Source: Streptacidiphilus melanogenes (GTDB lineage: Bacteria > Actinomycetota > Actinomycetes > Streptomycetales > Streptomycetaceae). From it: DNA of 48,446 nucleotides. Positions within the stretch are counted from its first letter, which is position 1. Each line of letters begins with the position of its first letter. The notes beneath the pieces are model-generated. The model saw nothing but the letters and a program-made list of their open reading frames with translations. It did not search any database and had not been told where the DNA came from. The translations under genes were made by a program, and so were the position numbers. The stretch is taken from positions 209,486 to 257,931 of the forward strand of contig NZ_BBPP01000004.1 in NCBI RefSeq assembly GCF_000787835.1, given 5' to 3'. Positions 3,953 to 47,590 of this stretch are shown here, in pieces.

Positions 3953-5017
3953 TCAGCCGCGCGCGAGCTGCTCGGACAGCACCGACGGCAGGCCGGTCCA
4001 GTCGGAGGAGACGAAGGACGCGTGGGCGGCGGCCAGCTGGGCGACCCGGGCGTCGGCGTCGGCCTGGGAGGGGGCGGTGTCGGAGATGGCGGGGTCGACG
4101 TTCTGCGCGTCGGTCATCACCAGCAGGTAGTGGTTGGTGTCGTACCAGGAGGTGTCGATGCCGCCGTCCACGAAGGCGTGGGCGTCGCCGTCGAAGACCA
4201 CGAACCAGGGGCGCAGGGTCGCGTCGGAGTAGCGGGTGCGCGGGTCGCCGGAGGCGGCGCCGAGCACGGAGGGGAAGATCTGGGCCTGGCCCAGGGTGCC
4301 CGCGGCCTGGAGGGCGGCGAGGTGCTGGGCGTACTCGGTGTCGGTCCACAGGTGGTCGAAGGGGTTGTCCTGCTCGAAGGTGCCCGGGATGGCCTCGAGG
4401 ATCACCTTGCCCGCGAGCGCGGAGCGCTTGGGCCAGGCGTTCGCGCGGGCCGCGGCGTCCAGGGACGGGTAGCCGGCCATCAGGTCGGCGGGCCGGTAGA
4501 CGTCGGTGCCGAGGTGGGCCTGGACCAGGGAGTCCAGCTGCGTGGGGCCGAGCCCGACGGTGGCGTCGAAGCCGGCCTTCATCTCCAGCTTGATCATGAT
4601 CGGCGGGTGGCCGGGGTGCGCCGCCAGCCAGATCCGGATGTCGTCCAGACAGCTGCCCAGGTCCTTGTTGGCGCCGCCCCGGTAGAGGTCCGCGGCGCTG
4701 CTCGCGTCGACGCAGTTGTTGGAGTTGCCCAGCGGGTTGGCGTGGCTGACCTTCCACTCCTTGGTGAACGGGTCCACCCAGGTGTCGAGTTCGACCAGCG
4801 AGGTGCCCGCGTCCAGCGCCTGTGCGAGGAAGGGGAAGGCGGACGTGTCGTTGTAGGTGTTGTGCAGCCCGACCGAGGTGCCCGCGGCCAGGGACAGGCC
4901 ACCGGTGTCCTGCGCGGCGGCGGAGCCGCCCGGCAGGACGAACGGGATCACGCAGGCGGCTGCGGTCAGCAGGCATGAGACGAGACGACGCTGGGCGGGG
5001 CGACGCGAGGCGACCAT
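3953..5017 (-). CDS. Secreted Ca2+-dependent phosphatidylinositol-specific phospholipase C-like protein
   Basis: 354 residues. Start at ATG 5017, which has GGAGG at good distance; an in-frame ATG at 5053 adds 12 residues but has no such site. The N-terminus is a Sec signal peptide: RRPAQRR, then a long hydrophobic stretch, then a GSAAAQ cleavage region. The mature enzyme shows the two catalytic-histidine blocks of the Ca2+-dependent PI-PLC family: GLHNTYND with His, a metal-binding ELDTWVDP, and a second His in VSHANPLGNSNNC. Later segments (IMIKLEMKAGFD, VILEAIPGTFEQDN) match the TIM-barrel metal ligands. Expected to cleave phosphatidylinositol outside the cell; substrate is inferred from family. 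Streptomycete enzymes of this group are well known. Confidence 0.85.
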   Translation of the reverse strand: MVASRRPAQRRLVSCLLTAAACVIPFVLPGGSAAAQDTGGLSLAAGTSVGLHNTYNDTSAFPFLAQALDAGTSLVELDTWVDPFTKEWKVSHANPLGNSNNCVDASSAADLYRGGANKDLGSCLDDIRIWLAAHPGHPPIMIKLEMKAGFDATVGLGPTQLDSLVQAHLGTDVYRPADLMAGYPSLDAAARANAWPKRSALAGKVILEAIPGTFEQDNPFDHLWTDTEYAQHLAALQAAGTLGQAQIFPSVLGAASGDPRTRYSDATLRPWFVVFDGDAHAFVDGGIDTSWYDTNHYLLVMTDAQNVDPAISDTAPSQADADARVAQLAAAHASFVSSDWTGLPSVLSEQLARG

Positions 5018-27824: not shown

Positions 27825-28027
27825 TCTGATGCATGGACGTCACAGGTCGAACCATGATCACGGCCGCGCGAGCGACGAGCTCGCCGGTCGCCCCCGCCTG
27901 ACGTCTTCCCTCTTCCACGCCGGCGACCGGACACGGTCCGCCGGTCGTGCCATGGCTTCCTCCTGGTCGCGTTGATCGCGTGGACTCGTGGTCCGGCGCC
28001 TTCCGCCCGTTCGCGAAGGAGCCACCC

Positions 28028-29200
28028 ATGCACAGCGACCAGATCGTCCGCACGTTCGTCGAGTACTTCGAGGAGCGCGGCCACCGACGGATCACCGGCT
28101 CGACCCTGCTGCCGCCGCCGGGCGACCGGGTCCTCTTCACCACCTCCGGCATGCACCCGCTCACCCCCTACCTCGAGGGACGCCCCCATCCGCTCGGCAG
28201 CCGGCTGGTCAACCTGCAGCGCTGTCTGCGCACGACGGACCTCGACGAGGTCGGCGACGACACCCACCTGACCGTCTTCGAGATGCTCGGCACCTGGTCG
28301 CTCGGCGACTACGACGGGCGGCAGAGCCTCGACTGGGGCTACGGACTGCTCACCGAGGGATTCGGCATCGATCCGGGCCTGCTCCACGCCACGGTCTTCG
28401 GCGGCGACGGCCTCACCGGCCCGGACGTCTCCTCCCTGGAGCTGTGGCAGGAACGCGGCGTGCCGGTGGAGCTGACCGTGGAGGACAACTGGTGGTCCAA
28501 CGGGCCGACCGGCCCGTGCGGCCCCGACTCGGAGATCTTCCTGTGGACCGGCGAAACCGACACCCCGCCGCAGTCGACCCCGACGACCGACGACCGCTGG
28601 GTGGAGGTGTGGAACCACGTGATGATGCGTCACCGGCGGCTCGAAGACGGCACGCTGGTGCCGCTGGGCCGCCGCAACGTCGACACCGGCCTCGGCCTGG
28701 AACGGCTCGCCTGCCTGTTGCAGGGGCGGTCGTCGGTGTTCGAGTGCGACCTCTTCGAGCCCTGGCGCCGCATCCTGCCGGGCCCGTGGCCGCTGGACGA
28801 ACGTTCGCTGCGGCTGGTCTGCGACCACCTGCGCTCGGCCGTGGTGGTGATCGGCGACGGCGTCCGGCCGTCCAACACGGGCCGCGGCTACGTGCTGCGG
28901 CGACTGGTCCGACGGGTGCTCACCGTCCTGCGCGGGGACGATCCTTCGCGCGGTCTCGTCGACCTGCCGGACGAGCTGGTCCGGCACACCCTGGACCGCT
29001 TCCGTCAGCAGGAGGACCCGGAAACAGTGCGGCGGGTGCTGCTCGACGAGGAGCGGCGCTTCGACCGGCTCCTGGAGCGCGGCCGTCAGGTGCTGTCCCG
29101 CCCCCGGTTCCGGGGCCCGCTCGGTGAGGAGGACCTGCACTACCTGCACGAGACCCACGGCCTGCCGCGCGAGCTGGTCCTGAGCCTGCGGGCCGGGTGA
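28028..29200 (+). CDS. Alanyl-tRNA synthetase-related protein, aminoacylation module only
   Basis: 390 residues from ATG 28028, with AAGGAG six nt upstream. Class II catalytic blocks of AlaRS are present: FTTSGMHPLTPYLEG, LVNLQRCLRTTDLDEVGDDT with the motif-2 arginine, FEMLGTWSLGDYD, DNWWSNGPTGPCGPDSE, WNHVMMRHRRLEDG and motif 3 VDTGLGLERLACLLQG, then the tRNA-recognition region SLRLVCDHLRSAVVV and NTGRGYVLRRLVRRVL. The editing domain and the C-Ala region of full AlaRS (about 870 residues) are absent. Such paralogues may charge a tRNA or a carrier with alanine for another purpose, or be decoys. The genome must have a full alaS elsewhere. Confidence 0.88.
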   Translation: MHSDQIVRTFVEYFEERGHRRITGSTLLPPPGDRVLFTTSGMHPLTPYLEGRPHPLGSRLVNLQRCLRTTDLDEVGDDTHLTVFEMLGTWSLGDYDGRQSLDWGYGLLTEGFGIDPGLLHATVFGGDGLTGPDVSSLELWQERGVPVELTVEDNWWSNGPTGPCGPDSEIFLWTGETDTPPQSTPTTDDRWVEVWNHVMMRHRRLEDGTLVPLGRRNVDTGLGLERLACLLQGRSSVFECDLFEPWRRILPGPWPLDERSLRLVCDHLRSAVVVIGDGVRPSNTGRGYVLRRLVRRVLTVLRGDDPSRGLVDLPDELVRHTLDRFRQQEDPETVRRVLLDEERRFDRLLERGRQVLSRPRFRGPLGEEDLHYLHETHGLPRELVLSLRAG

Positions 29201-36920: not shown

Positions 36921-37319
36921 GGCGACCTTCCTGTTGACCTGCCGACGCTTCCGGCATCCCTGGTTACCGGCACGGCCGGGCGGCGTCGCCGCGACCCGCC
37001 GGTCGTTCACCGGGAAGGGTGTACACCCTCAGTCGGACGGCGCAGGGTCGTGGGCGGCCTCGGCTGACAGCCGGTCAGCGTGCGGGCGGCGGGCGGTTCG
37101 GGCCGCGCGCACCGTGCGTGCGGGACACGCCGTCGGGCGCCCCGAGGCGGTCCGCAGCTGCGTTCCGGACCTGCGCTGATGTTCGCGCGGGCGGCAATTC
37201 ACCCGGCCGCTCCATTGCATCATGCACGTCTTGGAGGAAGATGTGAGGAATCTGTCCCTCCAGTCCGCCACGGGCCGGTCCGGCGGGACGTCACACCGGC
37301 ATCGACCCCCAGGAGCCTC
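36921..37319. promoter_or_regulatory. Divergent control region with 14-bp palindrome
   Basis: AGGGTGTACACCCT at 37016-37029 is a perfect 14-bp palindrome, 96 nt from the serine hydrolase start. TGCATCATGCA at 37216-37226 is a smaller one nearer to the deacetylase-like gene. No gene is convincing in this 399-bp gap; short frames on the + strand lack ribosome binding sites. Confidence 0.5.
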
Positions 37320-38597
37320 ATGTCCACCTTCTCGCGTCGGGGTGTCGTCGCCGCGGTCGCCGCAGCCACCACCGCCGCGGTCACCGGCTGCGGCGGTCGC
37401 ACCGTGTCGAACGGCTCGGCCCCCCATCGGAATTCGGCCGCCGACGCGGAGAAGCCCAAGGTTGCGCAGCCGCTTCGCCTGATCGGCGACGGCTCGATGG
37501 CCGACACCGGGCCGCAGCCGTTCCAGCCGGGCGTCGAGCGGATGGAGCCCGGCCGGCGTCCGCCGCAGTTCGTCGTCTTCTCGTGGGACGGGGCCGGCGA
37601 GGACAAGAAGCAGCTGTTCTCGCACTTCCGCGCCGTCGCCAAGGAGACCAACGCGACGATGTCGTTCTTCCTGTCCGGCATCTACGTGCTGCCCGAGGGC
37701 AAGAAGGACCTCTACCTGCCGCCCGGCCACCGGCCCGGCGCCTCCGACATCGGCTACCTCGCCGACGACCACGTGAAGGCGACGCTGGAGCAGGTCCGGC
37801 TGGCGTGGCTGGAGGGTCACGAGATCGGCACGCACTTCAACGGCCACTTCTGCAGCCCCACCTCCGGCGTGGGCACCTGGTCGCCCGCGCAGTGGCGCAG
37901 CGAGCTGGAGCAGGCCGTCGGCTTCGTGGCGAACTGGAAGACCAACACCGGCTACCACGACATGGACCCGCTGCCGTTCGACTACGCCAGGGAGCTGATC
38001 GGCGGCCGCACGCCGTGTCTGCTCGGCCAGAAGCAGCTGCTGCCGACGGCCGCCGCGATGGGCTGGAAGTACGACGCGAGCTCGCCCGGCGGCCTGCAGA
38101 TGTGGCCGTCGAAGAAGCTGGGGCTGTGGGACTTCCCGCTGCAGTCGATCCCCTTCCCCGGGCACAGCTTCCAGGTGCTGTCGATGGACTACAACATGCT
38201 GGCCAACCAGACCGGCGGCACGCCCAACGGCGACCCGGCCATGCGGCCCTACTGGCAGCAGCAGTCGTACCTGTCGTACATGGCCGGCTTCAACCGCGCC
38301 TACAGCACCAACCGCGCGCCGTTCTTCGTCGGCAACCACTTCGAGTCGTGGAACGGCGGCATCTACATGAAGTCCGTCGAGCGGGCGCTGCGTGACATCT
38401 CGGCGCACCCGGACGTCCGCCTGGTCTCCTTCCGTCAGCTGGTGCAGTGGCTGGAGGCCCAGGATCCGGCGGTGCTGGACCGGCTGCGCACGCTCGCGCC
38501 GGGGCAGGCGCCCGGGGACTGGCGTGACTACACGGACGTGCCGGCGGCGCGCCGCCCGGTGGCGGTGCAGGGCGGCCGAGCGGTCGCCCGGACCTGA
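37320..38597 (+). CDS. Tat lipoprotein with polysaccharide deacetylase-like domain
   Basis: 425 residues from ATG 37320, with AGGAG six nt upstream; a longer frame upstream has no site. FSRRGVVAAVAAATTAAVTG then CGG is a Tat-type lipoprotein signal. The domain reads PPQFVVFSWDGAGEDKKQLF (Asp near the start, as in NodB folds), then ETNATMSFFLSGIYVL, EIGTHFNGHFCS giving a HxxxH (HFNGH), GWKYDASSPGGLQMWPSKKL, FPGHSFQVLSMDYNMLANQT and FVGNHFESWNGG. It is the divergent NodB-like family found in actinomycetes; the metal ligand set is likely D/H/H. Function unknown, extracellular. Confidence 0.85.
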   Translation: MSTFSRRGVVAAVAAATTAAVTGCGGRTVSNGSAPHRNSAADAEKPKVAQPLRLIGDGSMADTGPQPFQPGVERMEPGRRPPQFVVFSWDGAGEDKKQLFSHFRAVAKETNATMSFFLSGIYVLPEGKKDLYLPPGHRPGASDIGYLADDHVKATLEQVRLAWLEGHEIGTHFNGHFCSPTSGVGTWSPAQWRSELEQAVGFVANWKTNTGYHDMDPLPFDYARELIGGRTPCLLGQKQLLPTAAAMGWKYDASSPGGLQMWPSKKLGLWDFPLQSIPFPGHSFQVLSMDYNMLANQTGGTPNGDPAMRPYWQQQSYLSYMAGFNRAYSTNRAPFFVGNHFESWNGGIYMKSVERALRDISAHPDVRLVSFRQLVQWLEAQDPAVLDRLRTLAPGQAPGDWRDYTDVPAARRPVAVQGGRAVART

Positions 38598-38664: not shown

Positions 38665-38985
38665 TTCTGCGTTTCTCCGAGGCCGCACCCCCGTTCGGTG
38701 AGAGTTTCTCATCTTCCGACTGTCGTGGCGGTGGTCCGGTCGACGGTCTCCTGGCTGCTGCGATTTGTGTACGTCTTATGTGCATTGGTCCATCCGTGTG
38801 AGCGGCGTGGTCACGCGTTCGGCGCAATTCCATGAGCGCCGCACAAGAACTGACGACGCGTAATCTCATGTGTCTCTCAGCGTCAGATGACCGTGTGCGG
38901 GCGTGAGTTTTGTCACGATCGTCCTGTTCCTCCAGCGAGGTGCTGGAAGCAGGAACGTAAGGAATTCCGAAAAAGGAGAAATCAG
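38665..38985. promoter_or_regulatory. AT-richer leader and promoter region of the small peptide gene
   Basis: About 320 nt without a gene and with lower GC than the rest. Near its end GTTCCTCCAGC (38926-38936) folds with GCTGG (38942-38946) and AGGAAC (38951-38956), an 11-pair stem with a 4-nt bulge just upstream of the ribosome binding site AAAAAGGAGAAA. A leader hairpin of this kind could control translation. Confidence 0.5.
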
Positions 38986-39099
38986 ATGAGCTTCCGTTTC
39001 CCGGGAACCCGCGGCCGTGACCACGACTGGCGGGACCGCGACCGTCACGACCGTCGGCACCACTGCCGTGGCCGCCGCGGCCGCCGTCACGGCTGGTGA
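38986..39099 (+). CDS. 37-residue Arg/His/Asp-rich peptide with a strong ribosome binding site
   Basis: Starts at ATG 38986 after AAAAAGGAGAAATCAG, one of the best Shine-Dalgarno sites in the window. The product begins MSFRFPGTRG, continues RDHDWRDRDRHD and ends RRHGW: 13 Arg, 5 His, 5 Asp, 5 Gly, 2 Trp and one Cys (residue 27), no hydrophobic stretch. The central part is nearly all charged (RD repeats), the end RGRRGRRHGW. It is followed by a strong hairpin and then by an ABC exporter, the layout of a secreted or processed peptide. No leader/core boundary (GG or similar) is clear. Confidence 0.6.
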   Translation: MSFRFPGTRGRDHDWRDRDRHDRRHHCRGRRGRRHGW

Positions 39100-39134
39100 C
39101 GATCGCTGAAGCGGTAAACGGCGACACGTAGTTC

Positions 39135-39171
39135 GGGGCGGGTCCGCAGCACGGGGCAGCGGACCCGCCCC
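39135..39171. terminator. Hairpin between peptide and ABC exporter genes
   Basis: Perfect 13-bp stem GGGGCGGGTCCGC (39135-39147) with GCGGACCCGCCCC (39159-39171), 11-nt loop, 36 nt after the peptide stop. It could be a terminator or a partial attenuator that keeps exporter expression below that of the peptide. Confidence 0.75.
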
Positions 39172-39208
39172 TCGCTTTGGGTTCATTGGGACGAGAGGAA
39201 CGCGACAG

Positions 39209-41032
39209 ATGGGACCGACCATGCCGACGGACGCGCCGGCGCCGGCCGACGTCGAGCTGCTGCCCGGGGAGCCGGTACCGGCCGCCCCAGCGCTCGTCGA
39301 GGCCGCGCAGGAGGAGCCGGCCGGCGGCCCCGGAGGGGGGCGGCTGAACGCACTGGTCCGGTTCTGGCCGCTGACCCGGGGGGACAGGCGCTGGCTGGCC
39401 CTGGTCAGCGTGTCGATGGTGGCGACCGGTCTGGCGGAGACCGTGGCCGTGCTGTTGTTCGGGCACCTCACCGACAGCGCCCTGCAGACGGGCTCGCTGC
39501 ACGCCTACTGGGGACCGGCCGGGGTCTGGCTGGCCGTCAGCGCCGCCGCCGCGCTGATCGGGTTCGGCGGCAACTGCCTGGGCGCGTGGGTCGGTGAGCG
39601 CTTCATCCTGCGCCTGCGCGCCCGCGTCTTCGCCCACCTGCAGCGACTCCCCGTCCAGTTCTTCCAGCGGCACCGGGCCGGCGACCTCGTGGAGCGGCTC
39701 ACCGGGGACGTCACGGCGGTCGAGGAGCTGGCCGTGACCGGCTCGATCGGCATCGCCTCCGCGCTGGTCAACGTGGTCCTGTTCGGTGCCGCGCTGGTGT
39801 GGCTGCGCTGGGACATGGCCCTGGCCGTCCTCGCCGCCTCGCCCGTGTTCTGGCTGGCCGCACGCCGGATGACCGACCGGGTCGACGTCGCGGCCCACGC
39901 CCAGCGGGCCGCCGACGGCGCGGTGAGCGCGGTGATCGAGGAGTCCCTGCGGGGTGTGGCACTGCGGCGGATGTTCGGCCGGGCGGGGGAGGAGGAGCGG
40001 CGTCTCGACATCGAGGCGGGGCGCTGGCTGCGCGCCACGATGTCGGCGGTGCGCCTGGAGGAGTGCTACCACCAGGTGGTGGTCGTGCTGGAGTCGCTGT
40101 GCGTGCTCGGAGTCGTCGGACTGGGCACCTGGGAGGTCGGGCACCACCGGATGACGGTCGGTCAACTCCTGTCCTTCGCCGCCTTCCTCGGCTGCCTGTA
40201 TCCGCCGTTGCAGTCTCTCGGCCGTACCACGCTGCTCGTCACGTCCGCCGCCGCGGCGGCCGAGCGGGTCGCGGAGATCTGGGACGCCCCCGTCGCCGAG
40301 GACGTCCTCGCTGCCGTGGACGTCCTCGCCGAACAGGACGCCGCCGACGCGGGCGAACCGCTCGACGGGCTGTGCCCGGCCCTGGAGTTCAGCGGTGTCA
40401 CCCTCCGCCTCCCCGGTGCGGGGCATGCGCTGCTGCGCGACGTGACCCTCGCCCTCGGCGCCGGGCGGACCGCGGTGGTCTCCGGGCCGAGCGGCGCCGG
40501 AAAGTCCACCCTGGCGCGGCTCGCCCTCCGCCTCGTCGAGCCGACGCACGGGCAGGTGCGGTTGAACGGCCGTCGGCTGGACCGGATCCCGCCGGAGCGC
40601 CTGCACGACGGGATCACCTTCGTGCCGCAGCACACCGACCTGCTCCCCGCCTCCGCCGCCGACAACATCGGCGTGGCCAGGCCCGGAGCGACCCGCGCCG
40701 AGATCACCGCGGCGGCGCAGGAGGCGGGCCTCCACGACGCGCTGAACGACCTGCCGCAGGGTTACGACACCGTCTTCGACCCCGAGCACCCCGGGCTCTC
40801 CGGCGGGGAGTTGCGCCGCCTCGCCCTCGCCCGCGCCTGCCTGCGCGCGGCCCCGGTCTGGATCGTGGACGAGCCCGTCTCCGGCCTGGACCCGCAGGCC
40901 GCCGCCGCGACCCTGGCCGTCCTACGCCGACGTGCGGCGGACCACGCGATGCTGATCATCAGCCACGACCCGGGCGTGTACCCGTGGGCGGACTCGCATC
41001 TGGTCCTGCGCGAGGGACGCCTGTCCGGCTGA
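39209..41032 (+). CDS. ABC exporter, permease-ATPase fusion (type IV, half-transporter)
   Basis: 607 residues. After a Pro-rich tail, the membrane domain (residues about 60-330, six segments) carries RVFAHLQRLPVQFFQRHRAG, the exporter coupling helix. The ATPase domain has Walker A SGPSGAGKSTLARLALRLVE, the Q-loop FVPQHTDLLPASAADNIG, signature LSGGELRRLALARACL, Walker B VWIVDEPVSGLD and H-loop LIISHDP. There is no C39 peptidase domain, so it would not trim a GG leader itself. Dimerises to export a peptide or lipid-like molecule; the preceding peptide is the obvious candidate substrate. Confidence 0.92.
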   Translation: MGPTMPTDAPAPADVELLPGEPVPAAPALVEAAQEEPAGGPGGGRLNALVRFWPLTRGDRRWLALVSVSMVATGLAETVAVLLFGHLTDSALQTGSLHAYWGPAGVWLAVSAAAALIGFGGNCLGAWVGERFILRLRARVFAHLQRLPVQFFQRHRAGDLVERLTGDVTAVEELAVTGSIGIASALVNVVLFGAALVWLRWDMALAVLAASPVFWLAARRMTDRVDVAAHAQRAADGAVSAVIEESLRGVALRRMFGRAGEEERRLDIEAGRWLRATMSAVRLEECYHQVVVVLESLCVLGVVGLGTWEVGHHRMTVGQLLSFAAFLGCLYPPLQSLGRTTLLVTSAAAAAERVAEIWDAPVAEDVLAAVDVLAEQDAADAGEPLDGLCPALEFSGVTLRLPGAGHALLRDVTLALGAGRTAVVSGPSGAGKSTLARLALRLVEPTHGQVRLNGRRLDRIPPERLHDGITFVPQHTDLLPASAADNIGVARPGATRAEITAAAQEAGLHDALNDLPQGYDTVFDPEHPGLSGGELRRLALARACLRAAPVWIVDEPVSGLDPQAAAATLAVLRRRAADHAMLIISHDPGVYPWADSHLVLREGRLSG

Positions 41033-41048
41033 AGTCCCCTGCTGATGC

Positions 41049-41078
41049 CGGACACGGCCCCGTCGGCGGGCGTAGGGT
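41049..41078 (+). promoter_or_regulatory. Possible promoter of the AraC-type gene
   Basis: CGGACA (41049-41054), 18 nt, TAGGGT (41073-41078). TAGGGT is a common streptomycete -10. The gene starts at 41132. Confidence 0.35.
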
Positions 41079-41131
41079 CGGCCACGCGGGGACCATGAAG
41101 ACGTGGTGTCGCACGGAAGGTGAGCCGGCGG

Positions 41132-42085
41132 ATGAAGACGCGGATGGAGACGCTGTCCTTCGACAGCGACAGCCTGGAGGACACGGAGGCCTTCCTGTCG
41201 TCCGCCTACACGCCCATGCGCATCGGCGGGCCCACCGAGGACACGCGTGCGCGGATCGAGCGGCGGGCCGTCGGCACGCTGACGGTGGACCGCCTGTCGT
41301 TCGGGTACGACATGGGCTACGACGCCGGCAGCCTGGGCCGGGTGTGCCTGCTGAGCGTGCACAGCGGAACCCTGGTCGACCGCACGTCCGGGCGGGAGGA
41401 GGTCTTCGGCCCCGGGGAGACGTTCCTGCTCGCGCCCCCGGACCAGCCCTATCGGGGGGAGGTCCGCTCCGCCCGCTACACCATCGCCATGTTCGACCTC
41501 GCCGTGCTGGAGAAGGTCGCGGGCAACCCGCCCGACGCGGGACCGGTCCGCCTCACCGGCGCCCGCCCGGTGACGCCGGCCGCGGACCGGCAGCTGGCCG
41601 ACGTGGTCGCCTACCTGCGCGACGGCCTGCTGGACAACCCGGCCGCCTGGCAGTCGCCGCTGGTGGTGGCAAGCGCCGTGCAGCATCTGGCCGCCGCCAC
41701 CCTGGCCGCGCTGCCCAACAGCACGCAGACGCCGCCGACCCGTCGGGACAGCCGTGACGGGGGGAACGACACGCTGCGCCGGGCCACCGTCTTCGTCGAC
41801 GAACACGCCCACGAGGACATCGGTCTGGACGACATCGCCCGCGCCGCGGGGGTGACCCCGCGCGCACTGCAGTACGCCTTCCGTCGACACGCCGGGACCA
41901 CCCCCATGGCACACCTGCGCACGGTCCGCCTCGACCTGGCCCACAAGGACCTGCTCGCCGCCGACCCGGCGACCGCCACCGTCACCGGGATCGCCGCGCG
42001 CTGGGGCTTCTGGCACCCCGGGCACTTCGCCGACCACTACCGCCGCGCCTACGGACAGGGCCCCGGCCGCACCCTGCGCGGGTAA
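41132..42085 (+). CDS. AraC-family transcriptional regulator
   Basis: 317 residues from ATG 41132 (GGTGAG seven nt upstream; GTG 41120 is in frame). The N-terminal ligand domain is cupin-like (FGPGETFLLAPPDQPYRGEV), similar to the FeaR/AraC-binding-like group. The C-terminal double helix-turn-helix is FVDEHAHEDIGLDDIARAAG, VTPRALQYAFRRHAGTTPMA and VTGIAARWGFWHPGHFADHYRRAYGQGP. It lies 99 nt after the exporter on the same strand; probably its regulator or that of the peptide gene. Confidence 0.9.
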   Translation: MKTRMETLSFDSDSLEDTEAFLSSAYTPMRIGGPTEDTRARIERRAVGTLTVDRLSFGYDMGYDAGSLGRVCLLSVHSGTLVDRTSGREEVFGPGETFLLAPPDQPYRGEVRSARYTIAMFDLAVLEKVAGNPPDAGPVRLTGARPVTPAADRQLADVVAYLRDGLLDNPAAWQSPLVVASAVQHLAAATLAALPNSTQTPPTRRDSRDGGNDTLRRATVFVDEHAHEDIGLDDIARAAGVTPRALQYAFRRHAGTTPMAHLRTVRLDLAHKDLLAADPATATVTGIAARWGFWHPGHFADHYRRAYGQGPGRTLRG

Positions 42086-45913: not shown

Positions 45914-47590
45914 ATGGCAGAGGCCGCCGACACGGTGCGGACCGTGATCATGACCGTGGACGACGATCCCGCGGTGTCCCGCGCGGTCGCCCGTGACCTG
46001 CGCCGACGCTACGGCGGCGAGTACCGGGTGGTGCGCGCCGAGTCCGGTGGGGACGCGCTGGACGCGCTGCGCGAGCTGAAGCTGCGCGGCGCCCCCGTCG
46101 CGGTGATCCTCGCCGACTACCGGATGCCGCAGATGAACGGGATCGAGCTGCTGGAGGAGGCGCTCGACCTGTTCCCCACCGCCCGACGGGTGCTGCTGAC
46201 CGCCTACGCCGACACCAGCGCCGCGATCGACGCCATCAACGTCGTCGACCTCGACCACTACCTGCTCAAGCCGTGGGAGCCGCCGGAGGAGAAGCTGTAC
46301 CCGGTGGTCGACGACCTGCTGGAGTCGTGGCGGGCCACCGACGGCCGGGACGTCAACATCACCAAGGTCGTCGGCCACCGGTGGTCCGCCCGGTCCTCAC
46401 AGATCCGCGAGTTCCTCGCACGCAACCAGGTGCCCTACCGGTGGTACTCCGTCGAGGAGCCGGAGGGTGCGCGGCTGCTCGCCGCCGCGGGCCGGGACAA
46501 GCTGCGGCTGCCCTTGGTGGTGACCCCGGACGGCGGCACGCTCGTCGAGCCCGAGGAGCGCGAGCTGGCCGCCGCCGTCGGGCTGTCCACCACGCCCGCG
46601 GCCGACTTCTACGACCTGGTCATCGTCGGCGGCGGCCCCGCCGGTCTCGGCGCCGCCGTCTACGGCGCCTCCGAGGGACTGCGCACCGTCCTCGTCGAGC
46701 GCGAGGCGACCGGCGGCCAGGCGGGGCAGAGCTCCCGCATCGAGAACTACCTCGGCTTCCCCGACGGCGTCTCCGGCGCGCAGCTCACCGACCGGGCCCG
46801 CCGCCAGGCCACCAAGTTCGGCGCGGAACTTCTCACCGCGTCCAAGGTCACCGGCCTCGAGGTGCACGGGGCCGCCCGCACGCTGCGCTTCGCCGACGGA
46901 ACGAGCATCTCCTCACACGCCGTGATCCTCGCGACCGGCGTGTCGTACCGGCAGCTCGACGCCCCCGGGGTGGTGGAGCTGACCGGGAGCGGCGTCTACT
47001 ACGGCTCGGCGCTGACCGAGGCGGCGGCCTGCGCGGGCCAGGACGTGTACATCGTGGGCGGGGCGAACTCGGCCGGCCAGGCCGCGATGTTCCTCTCCCG
47101 CCGCGCCCGCAGCGTCACCCTGCTGGTCCGGGCGTCGCGGCTGGCCGCGTCCATGTCCTACTACCTGCTCCAGCGGGTCGAGGACGCCCCCACCATCTCC
47201 GTGCGCACGGACACCGTCGTGGAGGCCGTCCACGGCAAGGAGCACCTGGAGGGGATGACCCTGCGCAACCGGGTCACCGGGCAGACCGAGAGCGTCGACG
47301 CGCAGTGGCTGTACGTCTTCATCGGCGCCGCGCCGCTGACCGACTGGCTGGACGGCACAGTGCTCAGGGACCCGCGCGGCTTCGTGCTGACCGGCCCGGA
47401 CCTGACCGCCGACGGGCGCCCGCCCGCCGGCTGGGCGCTCGACCGGCCCCCCTACCACCTGGAGACCAACGTGCCGGGGGTTTTCGCGGCCGGGGACGTG
47501 CGCGCGGAGTCCGCCAAGCGGGTCGCCTCCGCCGTCGGCGAGGGCGCCATGGCCGTCATGCTCGCCCACCGGTACCTGGAGCAGTCATGA
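45914..47590 (+). CDS. Receiver domain-glutaredoxin-like-thioredoxin reductase-like fusion protein
   Basis: 558 residues with three parts. Residues 8-145 are a response-regulator receiver: VIMTVDDDPAVSRAVARDLR, AVILADYRMPQMNGIELL with phospho-acceptor Asp68, TAYAD and LKPW. Residues about 148-225 look like a glutaredoxin/thioredoxin fold with its cysteines replaced (GHRWSARSSQIREFLARNQV). Residues 235-558 are a pyridine nucleotide-disulfide oxidoreductase: DLVIVGGGPAGLGAAVYGAS (FAD), GGQAGQSSRIENYLGFPDGV, DVYIVGGANSAGQAAMFLSR (NADPH) and TNVPGVFAAGDVRAESAKRV. The CxxC of thioredoxin reductase is absent (GSALTEAAACAGQ). Coupled (ATGA) to the cNMP-binding kinase gene. Confidence 0.93.
   Translation: MAEAADTVRTVIMTVDDDPAVSRAVARDLRRRYGGEYRVVRAESGGDALDALRELKLRGAPVAVILADYRMPQMNGIELLEEALDLFPTARRVLLTAYADTSAAIDAINVVDLDHYLLKPWEPPEEKLYPVVDDLLESWRATDGRDVNITKVVGHRWSARSSQIREFLARNQVPYRWYSVEEPEGARLLAAAGRDKLRLPLVVTPDGGTLVEPEERELAAAVGLSTTPAADFYDLVIVGGGPAGLGAAVYGASEGLRTVLVEREATGGQAGQSSRIENYLGFPDGVSGAQLTDRARRQATKFGAELLTASKVTGLEVHGAARTLRFADGTSISSHAVILATGVSYRQLDAPGVVELTGSGVYYGSALTEAAACAGQDVYIVGGANSAGQAAMFLSRRARSVTLLVRASRLAASMSYYLLQRVEDAPTISVRTDTVVEAVHGKEHLEGMTLRNRVTGQTESVDAQWLYVFIGAAPLTDWLDGTVLRDPRGFVLTGPDLTADGRPPAGWALDRPPYHLETNVPGVFAAGDVRAESAKRVASAVGEGAMAVMLAHRYLEQS

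Follow-up and report, generated by a model that had tools for sequence, protein, structure and literature searches.

The peptide gene, the adjoining exporter gene and their closest relatives

We describe here a small gene and the ATP-binding cassette (ABC) exporter gene that follows it in a 48,446-nucleotide stretch of DNA from Streptacidiphilus melanogenes, the whole of which is referred to below as the window. An initial annotation of this stretch had proposed that a peptide precursor is encoded beside its exporter, and this pairing was found to hold at every homologous exporter locus with adjacent sequence; the interpretation as a whole is partly supported. The locus comprises the following features.

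38699..38711, no strand assigned: inverted repeat of 5 bp, TGAGAGTTTCTCA, at the upstream border of the conserved unit; a candidate regulator site
38860..38875, plus strand: promoter-like element GTAATCTCATGTGTCT, a -10-like TAATCT followed by TGTCT
about 38920..38957, plus strand: leader stem-loop, which folds; judged by eye, it is partly compensated in locus L064 and different in L063
38973..38978, plus strand: Shine-Dalgarno sequence AAGGAG of the peptide gene, seven bases 5' of the ATG
38986..39099, plus strand: peptide gene; 37 residues, charged, rich in Arg, His and Asp, a probable exported product, sequence MSFRFPGTRGRDHDWRDRDRHDRRHHCRGRRGRRHGW
39135..39171, plus strand: terminator-like 13-bp hairpin with perfect arms, between the peptide gene and the exporter gene
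39209..41032, plus strand: half-size ABC exporter of 607 residues; PF00664 (ABC_membrane) 1.9e-35 and PF00005 (ABC_tran) 1.1e-25, both above cut-offs
41120..42085, plus strand: AraC-type regulator (PF12833 and PF14525); a neighbour, not a constant part

The peptide contains 13 Arg, 5 His, 5 Asp and 2 Trp residues with a single Cys at position 27, the gene and its initially reported composition being reproduced from the sequence, and it matches no Pfam or NCBIfam model. The region from 39100 to 39208 has a folding energy of -50.4 kcal/mol (z -3.0), which none of 200 shuffles matched, in agreement with the strong hairpin that had been noted there. The leader stem-loop that had also been singled out does fold, but its region shows no unusual stability (z -1.1), 24 of 200 shuffles being equally good, and is conserved only in part; its standing as a notable feature is not supported. 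The exporter carries ABC_membrane and ABC_tran within one chain of about 600 residues, as half-size type IV (ABCB-like) exporters do, and Pfam detects no C39 peptidase domain in it, which sets it apart from the peptidase-containing ABC transporters. These domains bear out the description of a half-size exporter without a C39 peptidase, followed by an AraC-type gene. No enzyme of the kinds that modify ribosomally synthesized and post-translationally modified peptides (RiPPs; lanthipeptide, YcaO and radical-SAM types) was found among the 26 open reading frames (ORFs), a subset of those in the window, that were scanned with Pfam, and none is constant in 24 exporter neighbourhoods, so the earlier statement that no such enzyme lies nearby stands. 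Modifying enzymes encoded elsewhere in the genome may act on the peptide.

Among 14 genomes of the genus, which include S. neutrinimicus, S. fuscans and S. anmyonensis, the peptide is present in four, namely the window genome, G007, G004 and G002; the other ten gave no peptide match at E<=0.01. These three relatives, G007, G004 and G002, are also the only ones of the 14 to have the exporter at 74-89% identity. In G007 a complete peptide ORF is followed by a run of N, the G004 peptide reads MSLRFPGLRRHGWKHDRHDRHDRRHHCRHGWGRNGR, and the G002 copy (L064) lies in two pieces, both ends of the peptide flanking a run of N. The frame is thus kept where the exporter is kept, as the initial annotation had required of a real gene, the ORF being complete in the window, L062 and L063 and uncertain at the gap in L064. 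In L062 a run of N (4652-4836) lies just 3' of the peptide gene, with repeated letters on either side, and in L064 the run (4395-4717) falls within the gene; these gaps represent either unmerged contig ends or a genuine tandem repeat.

Alignment of the four species reveals conserved blocks across about 290 bp upstream, at the Shine-Dalgarno site (where AAGGAGAA is kept in all four), at the start, in a stretch 3' of the stop and in the hairpin, where conservation covers most of the loop and S. anmyonensis (L064) has one compensated base change. The inverted repeat TGAGAGTTTCTCA, which has a single exact copy in the window genome, is identical in the window and its three relatives despite a different upstream gene in S. 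fuscans. In that species the genes upstream of the locus and 3' of the exporter both differ, and because both flanks differ we take the leader, peptide, hairpin and exporter to be the unit. The AraC gene adjoins the exporter in three of the four loci; since the S. fuscans exporter has no such neighbour, and since the gene is not constant in the 24 neighbourhoods, its proposed membership of the system was rejected. An ORF of 505 residues upstream of the locus (37080-38597) is conserved in three of the four species; by eye it resembles a relative of NodB-type deacetylases, and it has no Pfam or NCBIfam match at 0.001.

The intergenic DNA has matches at E<=0.001 in 183 of 394 genomes overall. Those beyond the four species were taken as chance GC-rich similarity because they are short; the sole one checked, L047, lies within a long ABC transporter coding gene. 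Weak matches to the peptide across the wider family, with E values of 0.008-0.1, were likewise treated as chance because most, although not judged individually, lie within long frames.

Pairing of exporter and peptide across actinomycetes

Distant homologues of the exporter, at 40-51% identity, are spread over Streptomyces and other actinomycete families. In 87 exporter loci examined, one of which (G299) lies at a contig end, all 86 with flanking sequence have a short low-complexity ORF alongside, of 26-69 residues and mostly polycationic, some of these ORFs having been accepted by eye. The searches scored three candidates per genome, and genome counts are therefore lower bounds. In 394 Streptomycetaceae genomes the exporter was found in at least 58 genomes (at least 68 matches, of which 66 reach E<=1e-147 and the other two are 41% identical). 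Short charged ORFs lie upstream in 64 of these 66, 53 by a first rule and 11 by eye, and the remaining two are the gap-split G002, with both ends present, and G299. A search of 374 class-level genomes matched at least 20 and yielded 12 loci outside the Streptomycetaceae, in five other families, together with three further Streptomycetaceae paralogues; the peptide is present at all 15 (12/12 and 3/3), one being divergent and three recognised only on a second look. It also stands beside the exporter in records of Streptomyces nigrescens plasmid SNP1 and Nonomuraea gerenzanensis (2/2) and at a third paralogue of G271 (L217; 1/1), which emerged separately. A second exporter in Streptacidiphilus G010, 49% identical, is accompanied by a distinct basic ORF, MSFHKIAPIGQNRKPAPAPKAAARPLAKPAARKPAAPRPRPVGGQGR, with a strong ribosome binding site before it and a strong hairpin after it. 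Three loci with 40-41% identical exporters (L073-L075), two of them the 41% matches above, were dropped as peptide-free controls once all three had proved to contain a Pro/Lys peptide in divergent orientation, MALPPLPLPKPKKQLPPPPKPAHGKKPLPPKGPKPFGAPKG or a close variant of it. The family is set apart by a gap in E values: in G271 and G297 its members have E<=7e-149 and the next exporters E>=3e-72, and in the window genome the values are 0 and 3e-52. In 24 of 24 neighbourhoods compared the exporter is the only constant gene; AraC genes, modifying enzymes and proteases are not constant.

Stop-free frames are common at such GC content, and an Arg-rich frame might therefore have arisen by chance. 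Indeed, an automatic rule that uses no motif was applied to other ABC exporters from G271, G297 and the window genome and yields a cationic ORF at 4 of 26 (37 were given, 11 of them without usable upstream sequence since they start at the locus edge; one of the 26 had only 475 nt upstream). The same rule succeeds at 78 of 85 family loci, and an N-terminal pattern is fitted by 72 of the 85 as against 1 of 37 other exporters. ORFs of 25-75 residues with at least 20% basic residues and the motif M-x-[FLVI]-x(1-2)-[KHRS]-[ILV]-x-P number 23 in 32.2 kb upstream of exporters (at 14 of 23 loci) and 1 in 790 kb of strand from the same neighbourhoods; these ORF rules, like the promoter pattern given below, were drawn up after the family had been seen. 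In addition, dN/dS, the ratio of non-synonymous to synonymous change, is below 1 in 21 of 21 chosen peptide pairs, not all of them independent (pooled pS 0.206, pN 0.087), with values for the window peptide of 0.32 against L063 and 0.75 against L062. The selection, the enrichment of the motif and the rule counts, together with the ORF at 86 of 86 loci and the conserved start and Shine-Dalgarno site, led us to reject a chance frame as very improbable. The peptide is conserved and protein-coding.

Peptide types and exporter clades

The composition of 108 peptides (L217 left out) is summarized as follows. Their median length is 42 residues (26-69) and their median net charge (K+R-D-E) +11, with a range of 0 to +15 and a value above zero in 107. 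K, R, H, P, G and A make up 72% of residues at the median and I, L, V, F, M and W 16%. Kyte-Doolittle means over 15 residues do not exceed 0.95, so that a membrane helix is not expected; the peptides are probably disordered. A frequent N-terminus is M-x-F-x-K-[IV]-x-P. The types that were distinguished include Lys/Pro/Ala (MSFHKIAPVKK..KPAPAPKK..RRPVGHK), Pro/Lys (MSFKKLAPLPPKPK..), Arg/Gly/Tyr, Gly/Tyr/Arg, Cys/Arg/Trp, a 31-residue Pro/Lys type and His/Asp/Arg (MAVFSNLMPFNHRDRDRDHNDRHGHDHGHDHD..), the last being by eye nearest in style to the window peptide. The 32 Lys/Pro/Ala peptides were chosen by motifs at both ends, and conservation of those letters is by construction. Eight peptides of differing types match no Pfam or NCBIfam model. 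Each locus holds one to five copies in tandem, with five in L126 and L127. Several genomes carry more than one locus with differing peptide types (L122 and L134 in G368; L107, L142 and L217 in G271; L104 and L121 in G302), and since two or three such loci occur in single genomes, these systems coexist.

Peptide type matches exporter clade. Twelve labels (eleven for peptides, including two catch-alls, and one for the outgroup) were placed on a tree of 88 exporters and need 15 changes; the minimum is 11, the shuffled mean is 56.3, and 0 of 200 shuffles were as low. An earlier tree, with a wrong label for L104 and with L073-L075 still called controls, gave 9 changes as against 36.9. Where a genome was seen to carry two exporters, these mostly go with different peptide types that match their clades, as in G297 (L126, Lys/Pro/Ala; L133, Pro/Lys) and G271 (L107 and L142). 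The exporters also share a distinctive feature. Among 83 members of the family, 80, 80, 82 and 77 have an acidic residue at positions 77, 202, 295 and 309, respectively, of the membrane part, in the numbering of the window exporter. The corresponding counts for 31 exporters outside the family are 0, 1, 0 and 0, with 17 of the 31 gapped at position 77 (three of an original 34 were removed by a stop filter). Hydrophobicity suggests that these acidic residues lie within membrane helices and face the cavity.

As a whole, these results make it likely that the partner ABC exporter is dedicated to the export of unmodified charged peptides. Several points weigh against this interpretation. The peptides are not uniformly cationic, L184 having the lowest charge of the 108, zero, and L217 being rich in His, Asp and Arg; the naming of the types and the acceptance of several ORFs were done by eye, since the automatic rule failed to pick up 7 of 85 loci and also L217. 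The tree has only three outgroup exporters, its catch-all label MISC is unclustered (500 of 500 shuffles as low) and the label HDR needs 3 changes. In G369 two exporters are accompanied by the same broad peptide type (L103 and L155), and linkage alone, through joint inheritance, would give part of the match between peptide and tree. The window peptide gene differs from that of L062, its nearest relative, by 5 non-synonymous and 2 synonymous changes, so that selection is not visible on this pair, and the frame of L064, which has a 2-nt alignment gap shortly 5' of its run of N, is uncertain near that assembly gap.

A different possibility is that the peptide remains in the cytoplasm and binds metal, nucleic acid or a polyanion, while the exporter moves another substrate such as a lipid or a drug. 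Its composition does resemble RGG, protamine-like or His/Asp metal-binding stretches, and the exporter is akin in sequence to P-glycoprotein and MsbA. Against this stand the tracking of exporter clade by peptide type, the family-specific acidic residues and the constancy of no other gene in the neighbourhood, and we regard a cytoplasmic role as distinctly unlikely.

Hairpin, proposed mechanism and significance

For the best 54-nt fold 3' of the last recognised copy, the median energy over 61 loci is -34.1 kcal/mol and the median z -4.2. A strong hairpin (<= -30) follows the last recognised copy at 46 of the 61, and eight of the 15 weaker cases had an additional copy that the first rule had missed. 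The folds 3' of 11 inner copies range from -12 to -18. Because strong folds follow the last copy and weak folds the inner ones, the hairpin closes the peptide array. In the window the hairpin had been described as separating the peptide gene from the exporter gene; it does lie between them, but just 37 nt remain from its end to the exporter ATG, so that the exporter is probably not cut off but transcribed through the hairpin. Partial termination after structural genes is known in bacteriocin operons, and by analogy may occur here. Three RNA family matches between 36000 and 44000 were discarded, all being far under their gathering scores; one of these, to the Chloroflexi-1 RNA, overlaps the hairpin at 23.4 bits, where the gathering score is 80.

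Upstream of the first peptide copy the promoter-like pattern GTARNNT-N3..9-DTGTCD, that of the window element at 38860-38875, is present at 51 of 64 loci, as against a shuffle mean of 0.22, the pattern having been drawn from the same sequences. Inverted repeats of the TGAGA..TCTCA type and repeated GTCTCAGC half-sites were seen by eye upstream of the first peptide in L106, L107, L112, L115 and L159. Together with the window repeat at 38699-38711, repeats of this type suggest that a regulator may be shared by several peptide types.

The layout of an ORF, a terminator and a regulated gene on the same transcript, which is present in the window and at most loci, is also that of an attenuator, in which the ORF would be a leader peptide and stalling on Arg-, Pro- or Lys-rich stretches would decide read-through into the exporter gene. 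The position of the strong hairpin, the short distance from it to the exporter ATG and the RXR, PPPP and poly-Arg stretches of the peptides all fit such a scheme. In L073, L074, L075 and L173, however, the peptide gene is transcribed divergently and cannot attenuate the exporter, which excludes attenuation at these four loci and means that the attenuator layout cannot define the family. Attenuation is improbable also in the arrays of two to five copies, which, where measured, carry a strong hairpin only after the last copy; the Gly/Tyr/Arg types are without known stalling motifs, and purifying selection extends across the whole peptide. We therefore consider attenuation unlikely as the general explanation.

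Returning to dedicated export, we propose that the locus is a two-gene secretion unit. The short, charged and probably disordered peptide would be translated at a high level from a short transcript. The majority of transcripts would end at the hairpin and a minority would read through to encode a homodimeric ABC exporter, and because few read through, many peptides would be made per exporter. The exporter would recognise the cytoplasmic peptide, perhaps via a short N-terminal motif (MSFRFP in the window, MSFHKIAP and similar elsewhere) and perhaps also via its acidic membrane cavity, and release it outside the cell without modification, where it would probably act on polyanions or on other microbes. 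The export, its stoichiometry, N-terminal recognition, the lack of modification, disorder and the outside role are what we infer from the comparisons above. Outside the cell the peptide may have an antimicrobial, metal-binding or matrix role.

The arrangement of the genes is of a known kind, and the class of substrate seems to be new. Like the leaderless bacteriocins of the aureocin A53 and lacticin Q type, the present family would comprise short, unmodified, cationic ribosomal peptides with transport genes nearby; unlike them, its peptides are of low complexity and poor in hydrophobic residues and are accompanied by one half-size exporter. Judged by composition, without a profile of that family, they are not compact Trp-rich peptides of the aureocin A53 type. 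Leaderless bacteriocin clusters have also been reported in Actinomycetota, including Streptomyces, in passages where the peptide has 51 residues, five of them tryptophan, and the clusters encode PH-domain membrane proteins together with ABC transport systems that are differently composed (PMC11580447). The RiPP precursor-exporter loci, such as those of lanthipeptides and of microcin J25 with McjD, likewise have a small gene with a strong ribosome binding site, a hairpin after the structural gene, a half-size ABC exporter and tandem precursor copies; the present loci differ from them in that neither a modifying enzyme nor a protease recurs throughout the 24 neighbourhoods, and in the exporter, which is without a C39 domain. 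The Pro/Lys and poly-Arg types are similar, by composition alone, to animal antimicrobial or cell-penetrating peptides that are rich in proline or arginine, from which they differ in their bacterial origin and dedicated ABC exporter. The exporter is by sequence of the same class as the type IV exporters MsbA, P-glycoprotein and Ste6 (best matches in PDB: P-glycoprotein 5e-64, MsbA 7e-51, Ste6 1e-46); unlike these, the family exporters form a group of their own, with acidic residues that are rare or absent in the 31 others.

Two ORFs elsewhere in the window may be mentioned. A free-standing protein of 417 residues (27947-29197) matches only the first 400 positions of PF01411 (alanyl-tRNA synthetase class II). 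Full alanyl-tRNA synthetase is much longer than this, and the product is possibly a ligase that resembles it. At 45914-47587 the receiver domain of a response regulator is fused to a pyridine-nucleotide disulphide oxidoreductase.

A search of the open full-text literature, supplements and preprints being left out, gave no paper on such peptides among those listed, and in a Streptacidiphilus genome-mining paper the peptide passages seen are about lanthipeptides, without reference to a locus of this kind (PMC7601586). A family of tiny repetitive peptides linked to exporters in many actinomycetes is therefore apparently undescribed. We suggest, tentatively, that it represents a class of charged, low-complexity peptides that extends across the actinomycetes, each secreted without modification by its own acidic-cavity exporter, in about nine compositional types and with tandem multiplication. 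Outside the cell they may act as polycations directed at competitors, or they may contribute to a matrix or bind metal. If export does take place, then one to three loci in many Streptomyces and related soil bacteria encode such tiny charged peptides, which automatic annotation may overlook; none of the eight peptides tested has a Pfam or NCBIfam match. The family would then include peptides resembling proline-rich or arginine-rich antimicrobials, it would provide a new pair of exporter and substrate with an electrostatic hypothesis, that of an acidic cavity and a polycationic substrate, and the exporter clade would be a simple marker for locating more such loci.

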